55,844 nucleotides of DNA from Cryptosporangium minutisporangium (GTDB lineage Bacteria > Actinomycetota > Actinomycetes > Mycobacteriales > Cryptosporangiaceae), in contig NZ_BAAAYN010000025.1 of NCBI RefSeq assembly GCF_039536245.1, positions 30,333-86,176 on the forward strand, given 5' to 3'. The notes below the pieces were generated by a model. The model was not told where the DNA came from. It worked only from the letters and a program-made list of their open reading frames with translations, and did no database searches. Position 1 is the first letter of the stretch, and each line of letters begins with the position of its first letter. Below are positions 6,463 through 48,003 of the stretch, in pieces. Made by a program: the position numbers and the translations under genes.

Positions 6463-7332
6463 TCAGGAGCCGGGAACCAGCGTCGGCTCGCCGGCGAACC
6501 ACTGGCGGTAGGCGTAGTGGTAGTGCCCGTTGCGCCCGGCGTCGACGAGGGCGGCGTTCACCTGCTCGCGGAGTACGGTGTTGCCGTTGGCGACCGCGAA
6601 CACGACGTCGCCCGGTTCGCCGAACTCGTGGGTGACCCGCATGGCCCCGGACTTGTCCTGGAGTTGCGCGTACCGCGCGACTCCGCTGTCGAGGATCGCC
6701 GCGTCGAACCGCCCGGCGTGGATCGCGGCCGGGATGATGGCGCCGTCCAGCTCGACGGTCTGCACGCCGGCGGCCGCGACCTCGTCCGGCAGGATGCCGG
6801 ACGACTCGATCGCGACGCGCTTCCCGCGCAGCGACTCCAGCGACGTCAGGCTCGTGTCCGACGACAGGATCGCGGTCGTCCGGCGGAAGTACGGCACGGT
6901 GTAGTCGACCGGGAGCTGATCCGGGTCGTCCTCGGGCAGCGCGTAGAACCTGCCCGCGCTCAGATCGCAGGACTTCGCGCCGAGCGCCTGGGCGGCGAGG
7001 ACGTCACCCTGGTCGGACTCGATGATCAGTAGAACGACGCCGAGGCGCTCGGCCACCAGTGTCAGCAGCTCGACGTCGAAGCCCTCGGCCTTCGTGCCGC
7101 CCGCCGTCGCGCTCAGGTAAGGCGTTCCGCCGCGCCACTGGCAGACGGTCAACCGACCCTTCCGGACCAGCGGAACGTTCACCCCGTCCGGCACCTTCTC
7201 CATCGTCGCGGTGGGCGACGGCACGGCACTGTGGGTCGGTGCTGTGGGACCGCCCCTCTCGTCACTGGACGAACAGCCGGCTAACGCGAGGGCCAAGGCG
7301 AGCGGAACGGCCACGACCAGACGGTGTCTCAC
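6463..7332 (-). CDS. Polar amino-acid-type solute-binding lipoprotein (SBP_bac_3)
   Basis: 289 residues with a lipoprotein signal peptide (LALALALAGC, lipid-modified Cys at residue 20), so it is anchored outside the membrane. The mature part has the type-3 periplasmic-binding pattern: GRLTVCQWRGGTPYLSA at the N-terminus, GFDVELLTLVAERLG, and SLRGKRVAIESSGI before the second lobe. No ABC permease or ATPase is adjacent, so this is an orphan receptor that either serves a distant transporter or acts as a sensor. It is convergent with the GNAT gene, with 20 bp between the two stops. Confidence 0.85.
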   Translation of the reverse strand: MRHRLVVAVPLALALALAGCSSSDERGGPTAPTHSAVPSPTATMEKVPDGVNVPLVRKGRLTVCQWRGGTPYLSATAGGTKAEGFDVELLTLVAERLGVVLLIIESDQGDVLAAQALGAKSCDLSAGRFYALPEDDPDQLPVDYTVPYFRRTTAILSSDTSLTSLESLRGKRVAIESSGILPDEVAAAGVQTVELDGAIIPAAIHAGRFDAAILDSGVARYAQLQDKSGAMRVTHEFGEPGDVVFAVANGNTVLREQVNAALVDAGRNGHYHYAYRQWFAGEPTLVPGS

Positions 7333-7414
7333 TGAACTCCCCGTACCTCAGTGGATCTGAGCCGGGCCACCCTAGCGCGACGGATGCACAGCAAGCACAC
7401 AGATCACACCATTC

Positions 7415-7846
7415 TCACCCCGCCGGGCTCCACCCCAGTGCCGTCCCGAACGGGTTGTCGATCACGTAACGCCACCGGCCGTCGACGCCGCGGCGGGCGA
7501 CGTCGGTCGCGGTGCCCTCCACGTGCACGTGCCGACCGTCGGGGTCGGTGCCGTCGATCACCCAGTCCACGATGAGCAGCGCGATGTCGTCGGCGACGTA
7601 GACCTGCCGCGGGTTCACCGCGATCGGCAGCCCGAGGTCGAGGAAGCGCTGGTTGGCGCCGACGCGTTCGGCCGCGGTGTCGACGCTCCGGCCCGGCTCG
7701 GTGACCAGGACACCGCCCGGCTCGTAGACCTCGTCGACCACCGTGCCGCGGCCGGTGTTGAAGGCACGAGCGAAGACGTGCGGGTGCTGCCCCGGGTCGT
7801 CGGTGAGTGCGAGAGTGGTGGCGTGGAGCGTGTCGTCGATTCCCAT
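7415..7846 (-). CDS. NTF2-like (DUF4440/SnoaL-type) protein
   Basis: About 143 residues with the cone-shaped alpha+beta NTF2 pattern: an N-terminal helix, FARAFNTGRGTVVDEVYEPGGVLV, then VYVADDIALLIVDWVIDGTDPDG and RWRYVIDNPFG. Such proteins are small-molecule isomerases, cyclases or ligand binders. The function here is not predictable. A longer frame opens with TTG at 7882. I prefer ATG at 7846 because the fold begins there, though no clear ribosome site helps. It is divergent from the HxlR-type regulator, which may control it. Confidence 0.6.
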   Translation of the reverse strand: MGIDDTLHATTLALTDDPGQHPHVFARAFNTGRGTVVDEVYEPGGVLVTEPGRSVDTAAERVGANQRFLDLGLPIAVNPRQVYVADDIALLIVDWVIDGTDPDGRHVHVEGTATDVARRGVDGRWRYVIDNPFGTALGWSPAG

Positions 7847-24274: not shown

Positions 24275-24871
24275 TCAGTCCCCCTCGTAGCGCTGCTCGC
24301 GCCACGGGTCGCCGTAGTTGTGGTAGCCGTTCTCCTCCCAGAAGCCCGGCTCGTCCTCCAGCAGCAACTGGATGCCGCGCACCCACTTGGCGCTCTTCCA
24401 GAAGTAGAGGTGCGGCACGAGCAGGCGGGCCGGGCCGCCGTGCTCGGGTTCGAGCGGCTCGCCGTCGAAACCGAACGCGATCCAGGCCTTGCCGTCGAGC
24501 AGATCCTCGAGCGGGAGGTTCGTGGAGTAGCCGCCGTAGGAGTAGACCTTCGCATACTCGGCCTCGGTCTCGACGTTCTCGAAGAGCGTGTCCAGCGACA
24601 CGCCCTCCCAGTCGGTGTCGAGCTTCGACCATTTGGTGACGCAGTGGATGTCGACGTGCGGCGTCTCGTGCGGCAGGGCCAGCAACGCCTCCCAGCCCCA
24701 GCCGTGCACCGCACCGGTCTCGGTGACGATCCCGAAGTTCCAGTCCGCCAGGTCGACCTGCGGTGTGGGGCCGTAGCTGAGGACGGGAAAGTCCTCGGTC
24801 AGGTACTGCCCCGGAGGCAGGTCGCGGTGTTCCCGCCTACGCCCGCCGAAACCCGGAGAAACAAAGCTCAT
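24275..24871 (-). CDS. Sulfite-oxidase-like molybdopterin oxidoreductase
   Basis: 198 residues, a single oxidoreductase molybdopterin-binding domain (SUOX/MsrP type) without the dimerisation domain. The molybdenum-ligand Cys is in DIHCVTKWS (Cys77). ARLLVPHLYFWKSAKWVRGI and FWEENGYHNYGDPWREQRY are the usual C-terminal motifs. No Tat signal is present, unlike MsrP, so it should be cytoplasmic. It is fused end to start with the flavin-reductase gene downstream, a pairing seen in other Actinomycetes. Its ATG overlaps the stop of the last mini-ORF of the 32-bp repeat array (ATGA). Confidence 0.87.
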   Translation of the reverse strand: MSFVSPGFGGRRREHRDLPPGQYLTEDFPVLSYGPTPQVDLADWNFGIVTETGAVHGWGWEALLALPHETPHVDIHCVTKWSKLDTDWEGVSLDTLFENVETEAEYAKVYSYGGYSTNLPLEDLLDGKAWIAFGFDGEPLEPEHGGPARLLVPHLYFWKSAKWVRGIQLLLEDEPGFWEENGYHNYGDPWREQRYEGD

Positions 24872-24967
24872 CTGCGCGCCCTACTCTTCGCGCGAGCGCT
24901 CATCCGTGTCCCCTACTCTTCGCGCCAGCGCTCATCCGTGTCCCCTACTCTTCGCGCCAGCGCTCAT
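24868..24967 (-). repeat. 32-bp tandem repeat forming three ATGA-linked mini-ORFs
   Basis: A unit of 32 bp repeats about three times between der and the sulfite-oxidase-like gene. Each unit on the minus strand is an ATG-AGC ORF of 11 codons: 24932-24967 and 24900-24935 (both [11 protein letters not shown]) and 24868-24903 (MSARAKSRARR). Der's TGA overlaps the first ATG as ATGA, each mini-ORF stop overlaps the next start the same way, and the last stop overlaps the ATG of the oxidoreductase gene. The first two peptides are identical and the third is diverged. Whether the peptides are made is unknown. Confidence 0.85.
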
Positions 24968-26388
24968 CGACGCCGTCGCTTTTCCTTGATCCGCACCGAG
25001 ATCTGGATCGGCGTGCCGACGAAGCCGAAGTCCTCGCGCAGCCGACGCTCGATGTACCGCGTGTAGGCCACGTCGACGGGGCCGGTGGTGAACAGCACGA
25101 ACCGGGGCGGCTTGTTGCCGGCCTGGGTCGCGAACAGGATACGCGTCTGCTTGCCACCCCGGACCGGGTGCGGATGCGCGGCGACCAGCTCACCGAGCCA
25201 GGAGTTGAGCCGGCCGGTCGGGATGCGCTGCTCCCAGCCCTCCAGCGCGGTGCGCAGCGCCGGGGCGAGCTTGTCCACCGCCCGCCTGGTCCGCGCGGAG
25301 ACGTTCACCCGCGGCGCCCAGCGCACCCGCTGCAGGTCCCGATCGATCTCGCGCTCCAGCAGCTCGCGGCGGTCCTCGTCGAGCAGGTCCCACTTGTTGA
25401 ACGCGAGCACGAGCGCGCGGCCGGACTCGATCACGCTCGTGACGACGCGCTGGTCCTGCTCGCTCAGCGTCTCGCTGGCGTCGAGCAGGACGACCGCGAC
25501 CTCGGCGGCCTCGATCGCCGCCGCCGTCCGCAGGCTCGCGTAGTACTCGGCGCCGCTGGCGAACGAGACCTTCTTCCGCAGGCCCGCGGTGTCGACGAAA
25601 CGCCACACCTCGTCCCCGAGCTCCACCAGGCTGTCGACCGGGTCGACGGTGGTGCCCGCGACCGAGTCGACGACCGCGCGGTCCTCCTTGGACACGGCGT
25701 TGAGCAGGCTGGACTTGCCGACGTTGGGCCGGCCGACCAGCGCGACGCGGCGCGGACCGCCGGTACCGAAGCGGCCCTCGAGCGGCGCCTCCGGCAGCAC
25801 GTCCAGCACCTTGTCGAGCAGGTCGCCGGACCCGCGGCCGTGCAGGGCCGAGACCGGCCACGGCTCGCCGAGGCCCAGTCGCCACAGCTCGGCGACGTCG
25901 GCCTCGCCTTTCGTGTCGTCCACCTTGTTCGCGGCCAGGACGACCGGCTTGCCGCCGCGCTGCAGGACACGGGCCACGGCCAGGTCGGTCTCGGTGATGC
26001 CGACCCGGGCGTCGACGACCAGCAGGACGGCGTCCGCGACGCTCATCGCGTACCGCGCCTGAGCGGCGATCGCGGCGGCGCGGCCCTGGGCGTCGGGTTC
26101 CCAGCCGCCGGTGTCGACGAGCGTGAAGCGACGGCCGTTCCAGACCGCGTCGTAGGCCACCCGGTCCCTGGTGACTCCCGGAACGTCCTGCACGACCGCC
26201 TCGCGGCGGCCGAGGATGCGGTTGACGAGCGTCGATTTGCCGACGTTGGGCCGGCCGACGACCGCCAGCACGGGCAGCGAACCAGGGGCCTCGTCGCCCT
26301 CGTCGCCGCCCTCGTCCCCTTCGAGCGCCGCCAGCTCGGCGTCCGAGATCTCGTACTCGTCAGCCAGCTGGGTCCAGTTGTCGCTCAT
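24964..26388 (-). CDS. der: GTPase Der (EngA), 50S ribosome assembly factor
   Basis: 474 residues with two G domains in tandem and a C-terminal KH-like domain. The first P-loop GRPNVGKS is at ~45-52, with DTGGWE (G3) and NKVD (G4). The second GRPNVGKS is near 219, with DTAGLRKK and NKWD. Double-domain architecture is unique to Der, which guides late 50S subunit maturation and is normally essential. The C-terminus is Lys/Arg-rich (RIKEKRRRR). Its first eight codons (MSDNWTQL) recur at the head of each upstream 98-bp repeat, and its start and stop are both ATGA-overlapped by repeat mini-ORFs. It lies downstream of cmk, its usual neighbour in Actinomycetes. Confidence 0.97.
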
Positions 26389-26857
26389 CGCGCGGAAGCT
26401 CCATCAGTTCGATTCACGACGCGCGGCCCGGCGTCCGAGATCTCGGCCCTGCAGCCCAGGGCAAGCTGGGTCCAGTTGTCGCTCATCGCGCGGAAGCTCC
26501 ATCAGTTCGATTCACGACGCGCGGCCCGGCGTCCGAGATCTCGGCCCTGCAGCCCAGGGCAAGCTGGGTCCAGTTGTCGCTCATCGCGCGGAAGCTCCAT
26601 CAGTTCGATTCACGACGCGCGGCCCGGCGTCCGAGATCTCGGCCCTGCAGCCCAGGGCAAGCTGGGTCCAGTTGTCGCTCATCGCGCGGAAGCTCCATCA
26701 GTTCGATTCACGACGCGCGGCCCGGCGTCCGAGATCTCGGCCCTGCAGCCCAGGGCAAGCTGGGTCCAGTTGTCGCTCATCGCGCGGAAGCTCCATCAGT
26801 TCGATTCACGACGCGCGCCCCGGTGTCCGGGGTCGGCTGCGTCCAGGTCACGCTCAT
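26343..26857 (-). repeat. 98-bp tandem repeat forming five ATGA-linked mini-ORFs between cmk and der
   Basis: Four apparently identical 98-bp units plus one diverged 77-bp unit. On the minus strand they form mini-ORFs at 26777-26857 (26 codons, diverged, MSVTWTQPTPDTG start), then 26679-26780, 26581-26682, 26483-26584 and 26385-26486 (33 codons each, [12 protein letters not shown] start, [11 protein letters not shown] end). The cmk stop overlaps the first ATG, each stop overlaps the next start, and the last overlaps der's ATG, always as ATGA. The unit copies the der 5' end (ATGAGCGACAACTGGACC plus GAGATCTCGGACGCC) with a small GCCCTG-GGCTG-CAGGGC hairpin in the middle. GGAG lies about 10 nt before each ATG. 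Confidence 0.92.
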
Positions 26858-27600
26858 CGCGCGCGGGCTCCCGCGGTCCGGTCAGCCCTGGTCTTGCGGG
26901 TCTCCGCGACGACGTCGAGGACGGCGTCCACGACCTGGTCGAACGTCAGCGCGGACGTGTCGATCTCGACGACCCCGTCCGCGGCGACCAGGAAGTCGAC
27001 CACGGTGGAGTCCCGAGCGTCCCGGGTCACGACCTGGGCGTGGGTGGCGGCGAGCGCCGCGGCGTCGTCGGTGCCGTGCAACTCGCGGGCGCGGCGCGCG
27101 ATCCGCGCGCTCTCGTCGGCGGTGAGCAGCAGCCGTACCTCGGCCTCGGGCGCGACCACCGTGGTGATGTCGCGGCCCTCGGCGACCACGCCGGTGCCCT
27201 TCTCCTCGGCCAGGATGGCCTGCTGCCGGGCGATCAGGTCGGCCCGGACGTCGAGGTTCGTCGCCACTGCGCTGACCGACTCGGAGATCCGCGACTGCCG
27301 GATCGCTCCGGTGACGTCGACGCCGTCGACCGCGATGCCCGGCGCACCGGGGTCGGTCGCGATGTCGAGCACCAGCGCGCGGCAGAGCGCCGCGACCGCC
27401 GGCCGGTCGGTGAGGTCGACGCCGCGGTCGAGCGCGGCCCAGGTCACGGCGCGGTACATCGCACCGGTGTCGAGGTAGCGCAGACCGAGGTGGCGAGCGA
27501 CGGCACGGCAGACGCTGGATTTACCCGACCCGGAGGGGCCGTCGACGGCGATGACGCCCCGGAATCCCGCCCCCGGCTGCGCCGCCTCGGGTGTGCTCAA
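26854..27600 (-). CDS. cmk: Cytidylate kinase
   Basis: 248 residues from TTG at 27600. The P-loop GPSGSGKS is at the N-terminus, followed by LDTGAMYRAVTWAALDRG (CMP-binding), AEGRDITTVVAPEAEVRLLLTAD and the lid RARELHG. It phosphorylates CMP/dCMP for nucleotide supply. TTG is chosen because AGGAGGT lies six bases before it; ATG at 27624 has no ribosome site. The C-terminus is Arg-rich (KTRADRTAGARAR) and its TGA overlaps the ATG of the first repeat mini-ORF. It heads the cmk-repeat-der-repeat-oxidoreductase transcription unit. Confidence 0.93.
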   Translation of the reverse strand: MSTPEAAQPGAGFRGVIAVDGPSGSGKSSVCRAVARHLGLRYLDTGAMYRAVTWAALDRGVDLTDRPAVAALCRALVLDIATDPGAPGIAVDGVDVTGAIRQSRISESVSAVATNLDVRADLIARQQAILAEEKGTGVVAEGRDITTVVAPEAEVRLLLTADESARIARRARELHGTDDAAALAATHAQVVTRDARDSTVVDFLVAADGVVEIDTSALTFDQVVDAVLDVVAETRKTRADRTAGARAR

Positions 27601-27760
27601 CGCCTGACCTCCTCGTAACGCCATGAATGAGCGGTGGCGTAGATCGGTACAGCCGTCGACGCCCCTCCTATCATGCCCGCTCGTCCACGTTCCCGGAGAA
27701 TCGGTTCTCGCGGCAGGGAAAGGCTGGGGATTGCTGGAGATCACTGGAAGCAGCTACGGT

Positions 27761-46674: not shown

Positions 46675-48003
46675 CTAGAGCCCGACCTCCGAGTGGAGCT
46701 GTCCGATCTCGGCGTGGTTGAGGTGCCGGGTCTTGCCGGGCTTCAGGCTGGCCAGCTGCACCGGGCCGATCGCGGTCCGGACCAGCCGGCTCACCGGGTG
46801 CCCGACCTCCTCGAGCAGCCGCCGGACGACGTGCTTGCGACCCTCGTGGATGACGACCTCGACGAGCAGCTTGCCGGGCAGGTTGTCCACGACCCGGAAC
46901 CGGTCGACCTTCACCGGCCCGTCCTCCAGCTCGACGCCCTCCAGCAGCCGCTTGCGGACGTCGTTGTTCATCGGTCCGGGCACCTCGGCGAGGTACGTCT
47001 TGAGCACGCCGTAGGACGGGTGGGTCAGCCGATGCGAGAGCGCGCCGTCGTTGGTGAGCAGCAGCAGGCCCTCGGACTCGGCGTCCAGCCGGCCGACGTG
47101 GAACACCCGGGTGTCCCGGTCGGCGACGTAATCGCCGACCGTCGGGCGGCCCTTGTCGTCGGTCATCGCGGACAGCACGCCCTTGGGCTTGTTGAACGCC
47201 AGGTAGACCATGCGGTCGTCGACGATCACCCGCTGCCCGTCCACGTGGATGACGGCGGTCAGCGGGTCGACCCGCTTGCCCTGCACCCGGACGACGTCGC
47301 CGTCGACGCTGACCCGGCCCTGCTCGATCAGCTCCTCGCAGGCGCGGCGCGACCCGACGCCGGCGGCCGCGAGCACCTTCTGCAGGCGCTCGCCTTCCTT
47401 CGGCTCGTCGAGCTTCGCGGCCCAGTTCGGGTCGCCCTCTTCCTCTTCCCAGACGTCTTGGTAGGGACGCTCGGGCGTCGCGGCCTTGCCCCGGCCGACG
47501 GTGCGGGACGCGCGCCGCGGGGCGGGCTGTCCGTCCCGGCCGAGCGGCTCGCTGCGCCGCGCGTCGGTGCCCCGGGAGGTGTCGCTCTCGCCGCGCCGGG
47601 GCGCTCCCCCGCGACCGCCCCCGCCCGTGAGCGGGGCGCCGCCACCGCCCGTACGCGGGGTGCCACCGCCGCCGGTACGCGAGGCGCCACCGCCCGTGCG
47701 AGGCGCGCCACTACCGGTACGAGGGGCGCCGCCACCGGTGCGGGGCGCGCCACCGCGGCCGCCGTCGCGGCCGCCGCCGTCACCGCCCCGCCGAGGGTTC
47801 TCGCCGCTCGCGCGGCGCGGAGCATCCCCACTCGCCCGGCGCGGAGCATCCCCACTCGCCCGGCCCGGAGCGTCACCGCGGCGGGGGGCGTCACCGCGTC
47901 CCGGCGCGTCACCGCGGCGGGGGGCGCCGCCACCCGTGCGCGGGGGACCGTCACCCCGGCGCGGGCTGGGGTTACGACGCGGCGATGACATCATCCAGGG
48001 CAT
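46675..48003 (-). CDS. rluB: 23S rRNA pseudouridine synthase RluB, with repetitive N-terminal extension
   Basis: 442 residues. The first ~190 are a low-complexity, positively charged tail built from repeats of APRRGD, DAPRRASG and APRTGGG, ending in an acidic patch (WEEEEGD). The enzyme follows: an S4 RNA-binding domain (RLQKVLAAAGVGSRRACEELI) and the RsuA/RluB catalytic core with GRLDAESEGLLLLTNDG (catalytic Asp) and EGRKHVVRRLLEEVGHPV. It should modify helix 89 of 23S rRNA. The start is uncertain: ATG at 48003, 47994 or 47991, all inside the end of scpB. The tail may bind RNA or ribosomes. Confidence 0.9.
   Translation of the reverse strand: MPWMMSSPRRNPSPRRGDGPPRTGGGAPRRGDAPGRGDAPRRGDAPGRASGDAPRRASGDAPRRASGENPRRGGDGGGRDGGRGGAPRTGGGAPRTGSGAPRTGGGASRTGGGGTPRTGGGGAPLTGGGGRGGAPRRGESDTSRGTDARRSEPLGRDGQPAPRRASRTVGRGKAATPERPYQDVWEEEEGDPNWAAKLDEPKEGERLQKVLAAAGVGSRRACEELIEQGRVSVDGDVVRVQGKRVDPLTAVIHVDGQRVIVDDRMVYLAFNKPKGVLSAMTDDKGRPTVGDYVADRDTRVFHVGRLDAESEGLLLLTNDGALSHRLTHPSYGVLKTYLAEVPGPMNNDVRKRLLEGVELEDGPVKVDRFRVVDNLPGKLLVEVVIHEGRKHVVRRLLEEVGHPVSRLVRTAIGPVQLASLKPGKTRHLNHAEIGQLHSEVGL

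Follow-up and report, generated by a model that had tools for sequence, protein, structure and literature searches.

The closest described parallels to the locus analyzed here are the mycobacterial interspersed repetitive units (MIRUs), which are portrayed as mobile elements that insert at start codons, show −4 nt translational coupling and likely have little effect on the gene involved (PMC12548453, citing Supply 1997). Their length is given as 40–100 bp (PMC2734929), and the MIRU04 units, 77 and 53 bp long, are reported to differ in copy number between strains (PMC2453075). The host range depends on the source, from a restriction to M. leprae and the M. tuberculosis complex (PMC4213456) to many mycobacteria (PMC12548453), and promoter activity has been reported for the MIRU region of senX3-regX3 (PMC4213456). 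Coupling at −4 nt is described as efficient and, depending on the gene pair, as strict, partial or absent (PMC6728339, PMC12548453), with strict coupling reported for some pairs (PMC6728339). Our literature search combining Cryptosporangium with tandem repeats yielded no paper naming the genus among those listed.

The window, a 55,844-nucleotide stretch of Cryptosporangium minutisporangium DNA, is part of contig C25 in a 9.23-Mb genome of 152 contigs (G000). On its minus strand, the cytidylate kinase gene cmk (26854..27744, start provisional; PF02224, 1.4e-57) and the EngA GTPase gene der (24964..26388; PF01926, 4.1e-50; PF14714, 1.4e-25) are separated by a chain of five mini-ORFs, hereafter array 1. 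The cmk stop overlaps the start of a 26-codon ORF (26777..26857) that opens with GCGCGATGAGCGTG at the cmk end and corresponds to a diverged first unit with a 77-bp step. Four 33-codon ORFs follow in 98-bp units (26679..26780, 26581..26682, 26483..26584, and 26385..26486), the last of which overlaps the der start with its stop codon. Every join of a stop with the next start, including those at the ends of cmk and der, is an ATGA, that is, a −4 nt overlap. The ORF list and the unit alignment bear out both the coordinates of this chain and the composition claimed for it in the preliminary description, namely, four units that are the same letter by letter and one diverged copy next to cmk; Tandem Repeats Finder (TRF) reports the array at 26366-26829 with period 98, 4.7 copies, 99% matches and a score of 914. 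Each start in the array, that of der included, is preceded by GGAG 10 nt upstream, the same spacing as in three congeneric species.

These congeners (G001, G002, and G003) provided the comparison of the cmk-der junction among relatives that the preliminary description had proposed, and none of the three contains an array there: the cmk stop and the der start directly share a plain ATGA, as CGATGAGC or CGATGACC. We further surveyed the junction in 110 loci (30 from our numbered genomes and 80 named ones, with a few contigs present under two names). The two genes lie on one strand in 109 of these, including the window's own locus, and among the 109, a repeat array with at least 90% matches near the junction occurs at the window's own locus only; eight other loci contain repeats of 2–3.2 copies with 67–87% matches. 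A start codon that overlaps the cmk stop by 4 nt and is in phase with der was found at 38 of the 109 loci, in five of which the gap exceeds 600 nt, so that another gene probably lies between cmk and der. Across the 9.23-Mb genome, the 98-bp unit matches in full at the cmk-der locus only; the remaining hits are short pieces, the best of which covers 28 bp (E 0.009).

A combined search for TRF repeats and ATGA chains in 61 pieces of the same genome (1,243,843 bases, about 13%, with some 16 kb counted twice) yielded three arrays: the two in the window (the second is described below) and one false positive. The latter (C25:107308; 7308-7417 of locus L130; a 32-bp repeat in 3.4 copies) was rejected because it is not located at a gene junction. 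The same search in G003, which covered 800,000 bases or about 9% of its genome, returned no arrays. A scan for serial ATGA overlaps that made no demand for a repeat was dropped because it produced many chance chains. Elsewhere in the window, positions 47616-47965 harbor a cluster of overlapping GC-rich tandem repeats with periods of 15–42.

The structure of the 98-bp unit points to its source. The unit consists of a 58-nt der-like head fused in frame to a 40-nt cmk-like tail. The head is the start of der with 6 extra nucleotides and shares GAGATCTCGGACGCCG with the der gene of the same genome, in agreement with the earlier observation that the units begin with der's own first codons; its first 24 nt match the der heads of G002 and G003 at 22 positions and that of G001, which contains an extra codon, at 9. 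The tail, when read in the cmk frame, resembles LRVVSETAGAPAR of G003. Over its 40 nt, the tail is identical to the cmk ends at 21 (own), 18 (G002), 22 (G003), and 17 (G001) positions, but this DNA match is weak by itself because the best unrelated 40-mers, taken from the loci of the three relatives, reach 21 (G002), 20 (G003), and 20 (G001). Shuffled peptides reached the score of the tail against the cmk C-termini in 58 (own), 0 (G002), 1 (G003), and 175 (G001) of 5000 trials. Furthermore, the tail extends for 40 nt after the word at the joint, exactly the length of the cmk ends of G002 and G003 counted from the homologous GCCACCG/GCCGCCG. The suggested origin of the tail in cmk is based on the peptide frame and on this match in length to G002 and G003.

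The word at the joint is GGACGCCG. It is present on the minus strand in the 3′ end of cmk (26922..26929) and in the 5′ end of der (26337..26344), where it provides the codons for D-A in both genes. With its position in cmk at 26929, at the joints of the 98-bp units at 26730, 26632, 26534, and 26436, and in der at 26344, it is in codon phase 2 throughout. The 77-bp unit contains GGACACCG instead, and the cmk genes of G002 and G003, with GCCACCG and GCCGCCG at this place, lack an exact copy. We propose the cmk and der occurrences as the left and right break points, respectively; given that an 8-mer common to both gene ends arises in 484 of 2000 codon shuffles, GGACGCCG is suggestive as a break point by its position only.

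Array 1, then, has the appearance of a cmk-der junction that was duplicated in tandem at GGACGCCG. A pairing error between the GGACGCCG near the end of cmk and the one near the start of der would have copied the piece between them, that is, the cmk tail, GGAG, ATGA, and the der head. With GGACGCCG in equal codon phase, the der frame would run into the cmk frame and stop at the copied cmk stop, so that every copy would become a mini-ORF with a der head and a cmk tail that ends in ATGA, with a period of 2 modulo 3. One copy would then have diverged to 77 bp, and one 98-bp copy would have been recently multiplied to four. If GGACGCCG is indeed the break point, both the ATGA chain and the period follow from the phase shared by the break points; such a chain is expected from any duplication of this kind and hence is no evidence of design. 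The model also needs a later gain of 24 nt in cmk because, in the window, 64 nt rather than 40 separate GGACGCCG from the cmk ATGA. The expansion is apparently recent, as the preliminary description proposed, this being the natural reading of four identical copies. The chain, the der-like heads and the identical copies of that description thus stand, but its interpretation overlooked the cmk-like tails, the neighboring array 2, and the MIRU precedent. Taken whole, we favor, with some reserve, an explanation under which the junction was duplicated in tandem and later expanded and the resulting array is most likely tolerated rather than being a regulator.

Ribosomes would pass array 1 by termination and reinitiation, and the GGAG of each mini-ORF would also permit independent starts. 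Because GGAG is kept at every start, including that of der, at the spacing seen in the relatives, near-neutrality for der is to be expected; judging from these signals, der translation is probably affected mildly at most, with little net change predicted. The 55 nt around the der start are predicted to form a hairpin that pairs part of the GGAG and the ATG (−15.5 kcal/mol, z −1.12, matched or exceeded in 23 of 200 shuffles). This weak predicted structure counts against near-neutrality, as does the strict coupling of some gene pairs (PMC6728339), and leaves room for the coupling model of the preliminary description. RNA structure as a conserved feature was rejected for both units (z +1.58 for the 98-bp unit, z +1.57 for the 32-bp unit of array 2). 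A scan for sigma-70 promoters across 24800-27000 found none and is uninformative because 0.0 were expected in shuffles.

The coupling model turns array 1 into a translation attenuator or tuner, in which der would be reached mainly via serial termination and reinitiation and its output would be set by a copy number that varies through slippage. We consider this rather unlikely. The uniform overlaps of −4 nt are within the spacing range of the most efficient coupling (PMC12548453), the predicted hairpin could hinder independent initiation at der, and, in M. tuberculosis, a link between the expression level and a variable repeat that lies upstream of fpg1 has been reported, albeit with mixed results from strain to strain (PMC2734929). 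However, the GGAG retained at all starts speaks against this model, and the predicted fold of the complete 98-bp unit is no better than those of its shuffles. The der product is essential, and coupling alone over six serial steps should strongly cut its production.

The insertion of a MIRU-type mobile mini-ORF element at the ATGA, as seems to have happened in array 2, is less probable still. This possibility draws on the way MIRUs enter at start codons and couple at −4 nt (PMC12548453), on the periods of 98 and 77 bp, both 2 modulo 3 like the 77- and 53-bp units of MIRU04 (PMC2453075), and on the adjoining array 2, which belongs to a dispersed family; however, the 98-bp unit has no second full-length site in the genome, and its head is der's own N-terminus, with a tail that resembles cmk. 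The copy number, in turn, was read from one draft assembly of 152 contigs, the single genome for the species, and the 392 bp taken up by the four perfect 98-bp copies may be beyond the resolution of short reads. Nevertheless, an assembly artefact affecting either the copy number or the entire array appears very unlikely: the perfect copies stand next to a 77-bp unit that has diverged but carries the same tail, and the lack of another full genomic match indicates that the unit is not a chimera with another locus of this genome. We regard array 1 as real and probably tolerated.

The neighboring 32-bp family is the less expected result. Array 2, 1.4 kb downstream of array 1, consists of three 32-bp mini-ORFs on the minus strand between der and a gene for a molybdopterin-binding oxidoreductase (PF00174; 24275..24871). 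The first (24932..24967) overlaps the der stop, the second occupies 24900..24935, and the third (24868..24903; MSARAKSRARR) overlaps the start of the oxidoreductase gene, all through ATGA. At the corresponding junction of G001-G003, array 2 is absent and the overlap is plain. The presence of two arrays of different origin at neighboring junctions is possibly due to chance.

In the same genome, a search for the family returned 30 matches at up to 2 mismatches, 25 of which are copies assigned to five sites, on contigs C25, C82, C24, C61, and C2. The most extensive of these, on C82 (locus L148, G000:C82:35187-35783), comprises 19 tandem mini-ORF units between an apparent ABC permease gene and that of its ATPase; the counterpart in G002 is empty, with a plain GTGA overlap. 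The C24 site, judged from its flanks, is occupied in G003 too, and at the C2 site, the overlap between the element and the start that follows is −1 nt instead of −4 nt. On contig C17 (L144 14756-14788, minus strand), there is a different 32-bp ATGA mini-ORF (MSVKTGSGRRG) between apparent response regulator and histidine kinase genes, with a core unlike that of the family.

Beyond this genome, 49 of the 397 genomes sampled from the order contain the exact 20-base core ATGAGCGCTYGCGCGAAGAG, compared to none for a reversed-pattern control; in a phylum-level sample, the core was detected in 5 of 396 genomes, all five from the window's order. It is also present in 4 of the 30 genomes searched from among the 80 named loci (Mycobacterium aurum, Mycolicibacterium sp. 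P9-22, a Mycobacterium MAG, and a Frankiales MAG), and the highest copy number noted in one genome is 41. Allowing up to 2 mismatches gave core matches in 27 of 41 genomes; however, many genomes also matched the reversed control (one match in G000; four versus three in G003), so that our claims on the spread of the family rest on the exact core. At one mismatch, all loci compared contain 100 distinct sites, 62 of them with a single copy. String searches of the literature library for the core and for the peptide yielded no description, the core matching no paper and the peptide none of the papers listed. One repeat word matched a primer in a rep-PCR paper on Mycobacterium intracellulare (PMC10117815), which we treat as a lead only.

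The copies tend to sit at start codons. The ORF is longer than 20 codons in 34 of the 137 distinct copies of the exact core; among the 103 copies with an ORF of at most 20 codons, 79 overlap a start by −4 nt and 24 do not, compared to 22 of 111 other short ORFs that begin with ATGAGC (Fisher p 2.6e-17, which overstates the significance, given that tandem copies depend on one another and that only G000 and G003 supplied controls). An earlier control (69/183) was replaced because it contained variants of the element. The interval between tandem copies is 32 bp in 44 of 70 cases, 18 of which come from one 19-copy array, and 50 of the 70 intervals are 2 modulo 3. The 18 intervals divisible by three (33 and 30 bp, among others) are not expected to form a chain of stops and restarts. 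In one family, composite repeats 75–98 bp long (L222, L266-L288, G064) combine ATGAGYGAGSATCGCAG...GGAGCGGAGCGA...CAGCG with the 32-bp core that follows; in G064, these composites, of MIRU-like size, occur in one or two copies before start codons. Of 61 genomes, 7 contain the composite half ATGAGYGAGSATCGCAG; the 4 genomes of the window's own genus do not.

Put together, the two arrays invite a broader reading, which we consider doubtful and offer as speculation, in which repeats in this order would arise and spread at ATGA operon junctions. The 32-bp coding element (core ATGAGCGCTYGCGCGAAGAG) would move between species and junctions by exact insertion at start codons, go almost unnoticed since the ribosome is passed along by its mini-ORF, and grow to as many as 19 copies; native junctions, such as cmk-der, would grow by duplication; and array length would set the expression ratio of the flanking genes. 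Independent of this reading, array 1 offers a concrete route to a chain of overlapping mini-ORFs without selection, via the duplication of a junction at break points of equal phase. The 32-bp family, if mobile, would stand out for the small size of its element and for the clarity of its target rule, and both arrays represent a ready-made copy-number series for measuring the passage of ribosomes over serial ATGA junctions.

Array 1 resembles MIRUs, such as MIRU04/ETR-D at senX3-regX3, in the −4 nt coupling of each of its five mini-ORFs with the start that follows. Unlike MIRUs, it is confined to one locus and is made of the neighboring genes' own ends; because it is not dispersed, we do not classify it as a MIRU despite the equal junction geometry. 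Array 2, likened to MIRUs from published descriptions, shares with them both the dispersal and the placement at start codons with −4 nt coupling, but its 32-bp units fall below the 40–100 bp given for MIRUs (PMC2734929). The VNTR3239 at rnc-fpg1 of M. tuberculosis likewise places tandem repeats at the junction of two operon genes, which in most of the other mycobacteria listed spans just a few bases; its units, however, are 55/79 bp, and an ATGA chain of mini-ORFs is not among the features described for it in the account consulted (PMC2734929). The Start-Associated Sequences of cluster K mycobacteriophages are also short repeats at start codons, but, as reported, these have a 13-bp consensus of a different sequence, lie upstream of the start codon and are found in phages (PMC3203893). 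Finally, ordinary ATGA overlaps with termination and reinitiation involve the same −4 nt overlap (PMC6728339); there, however, two genes are coupled directly, whereas array 1 places five mini-ORFs between them.
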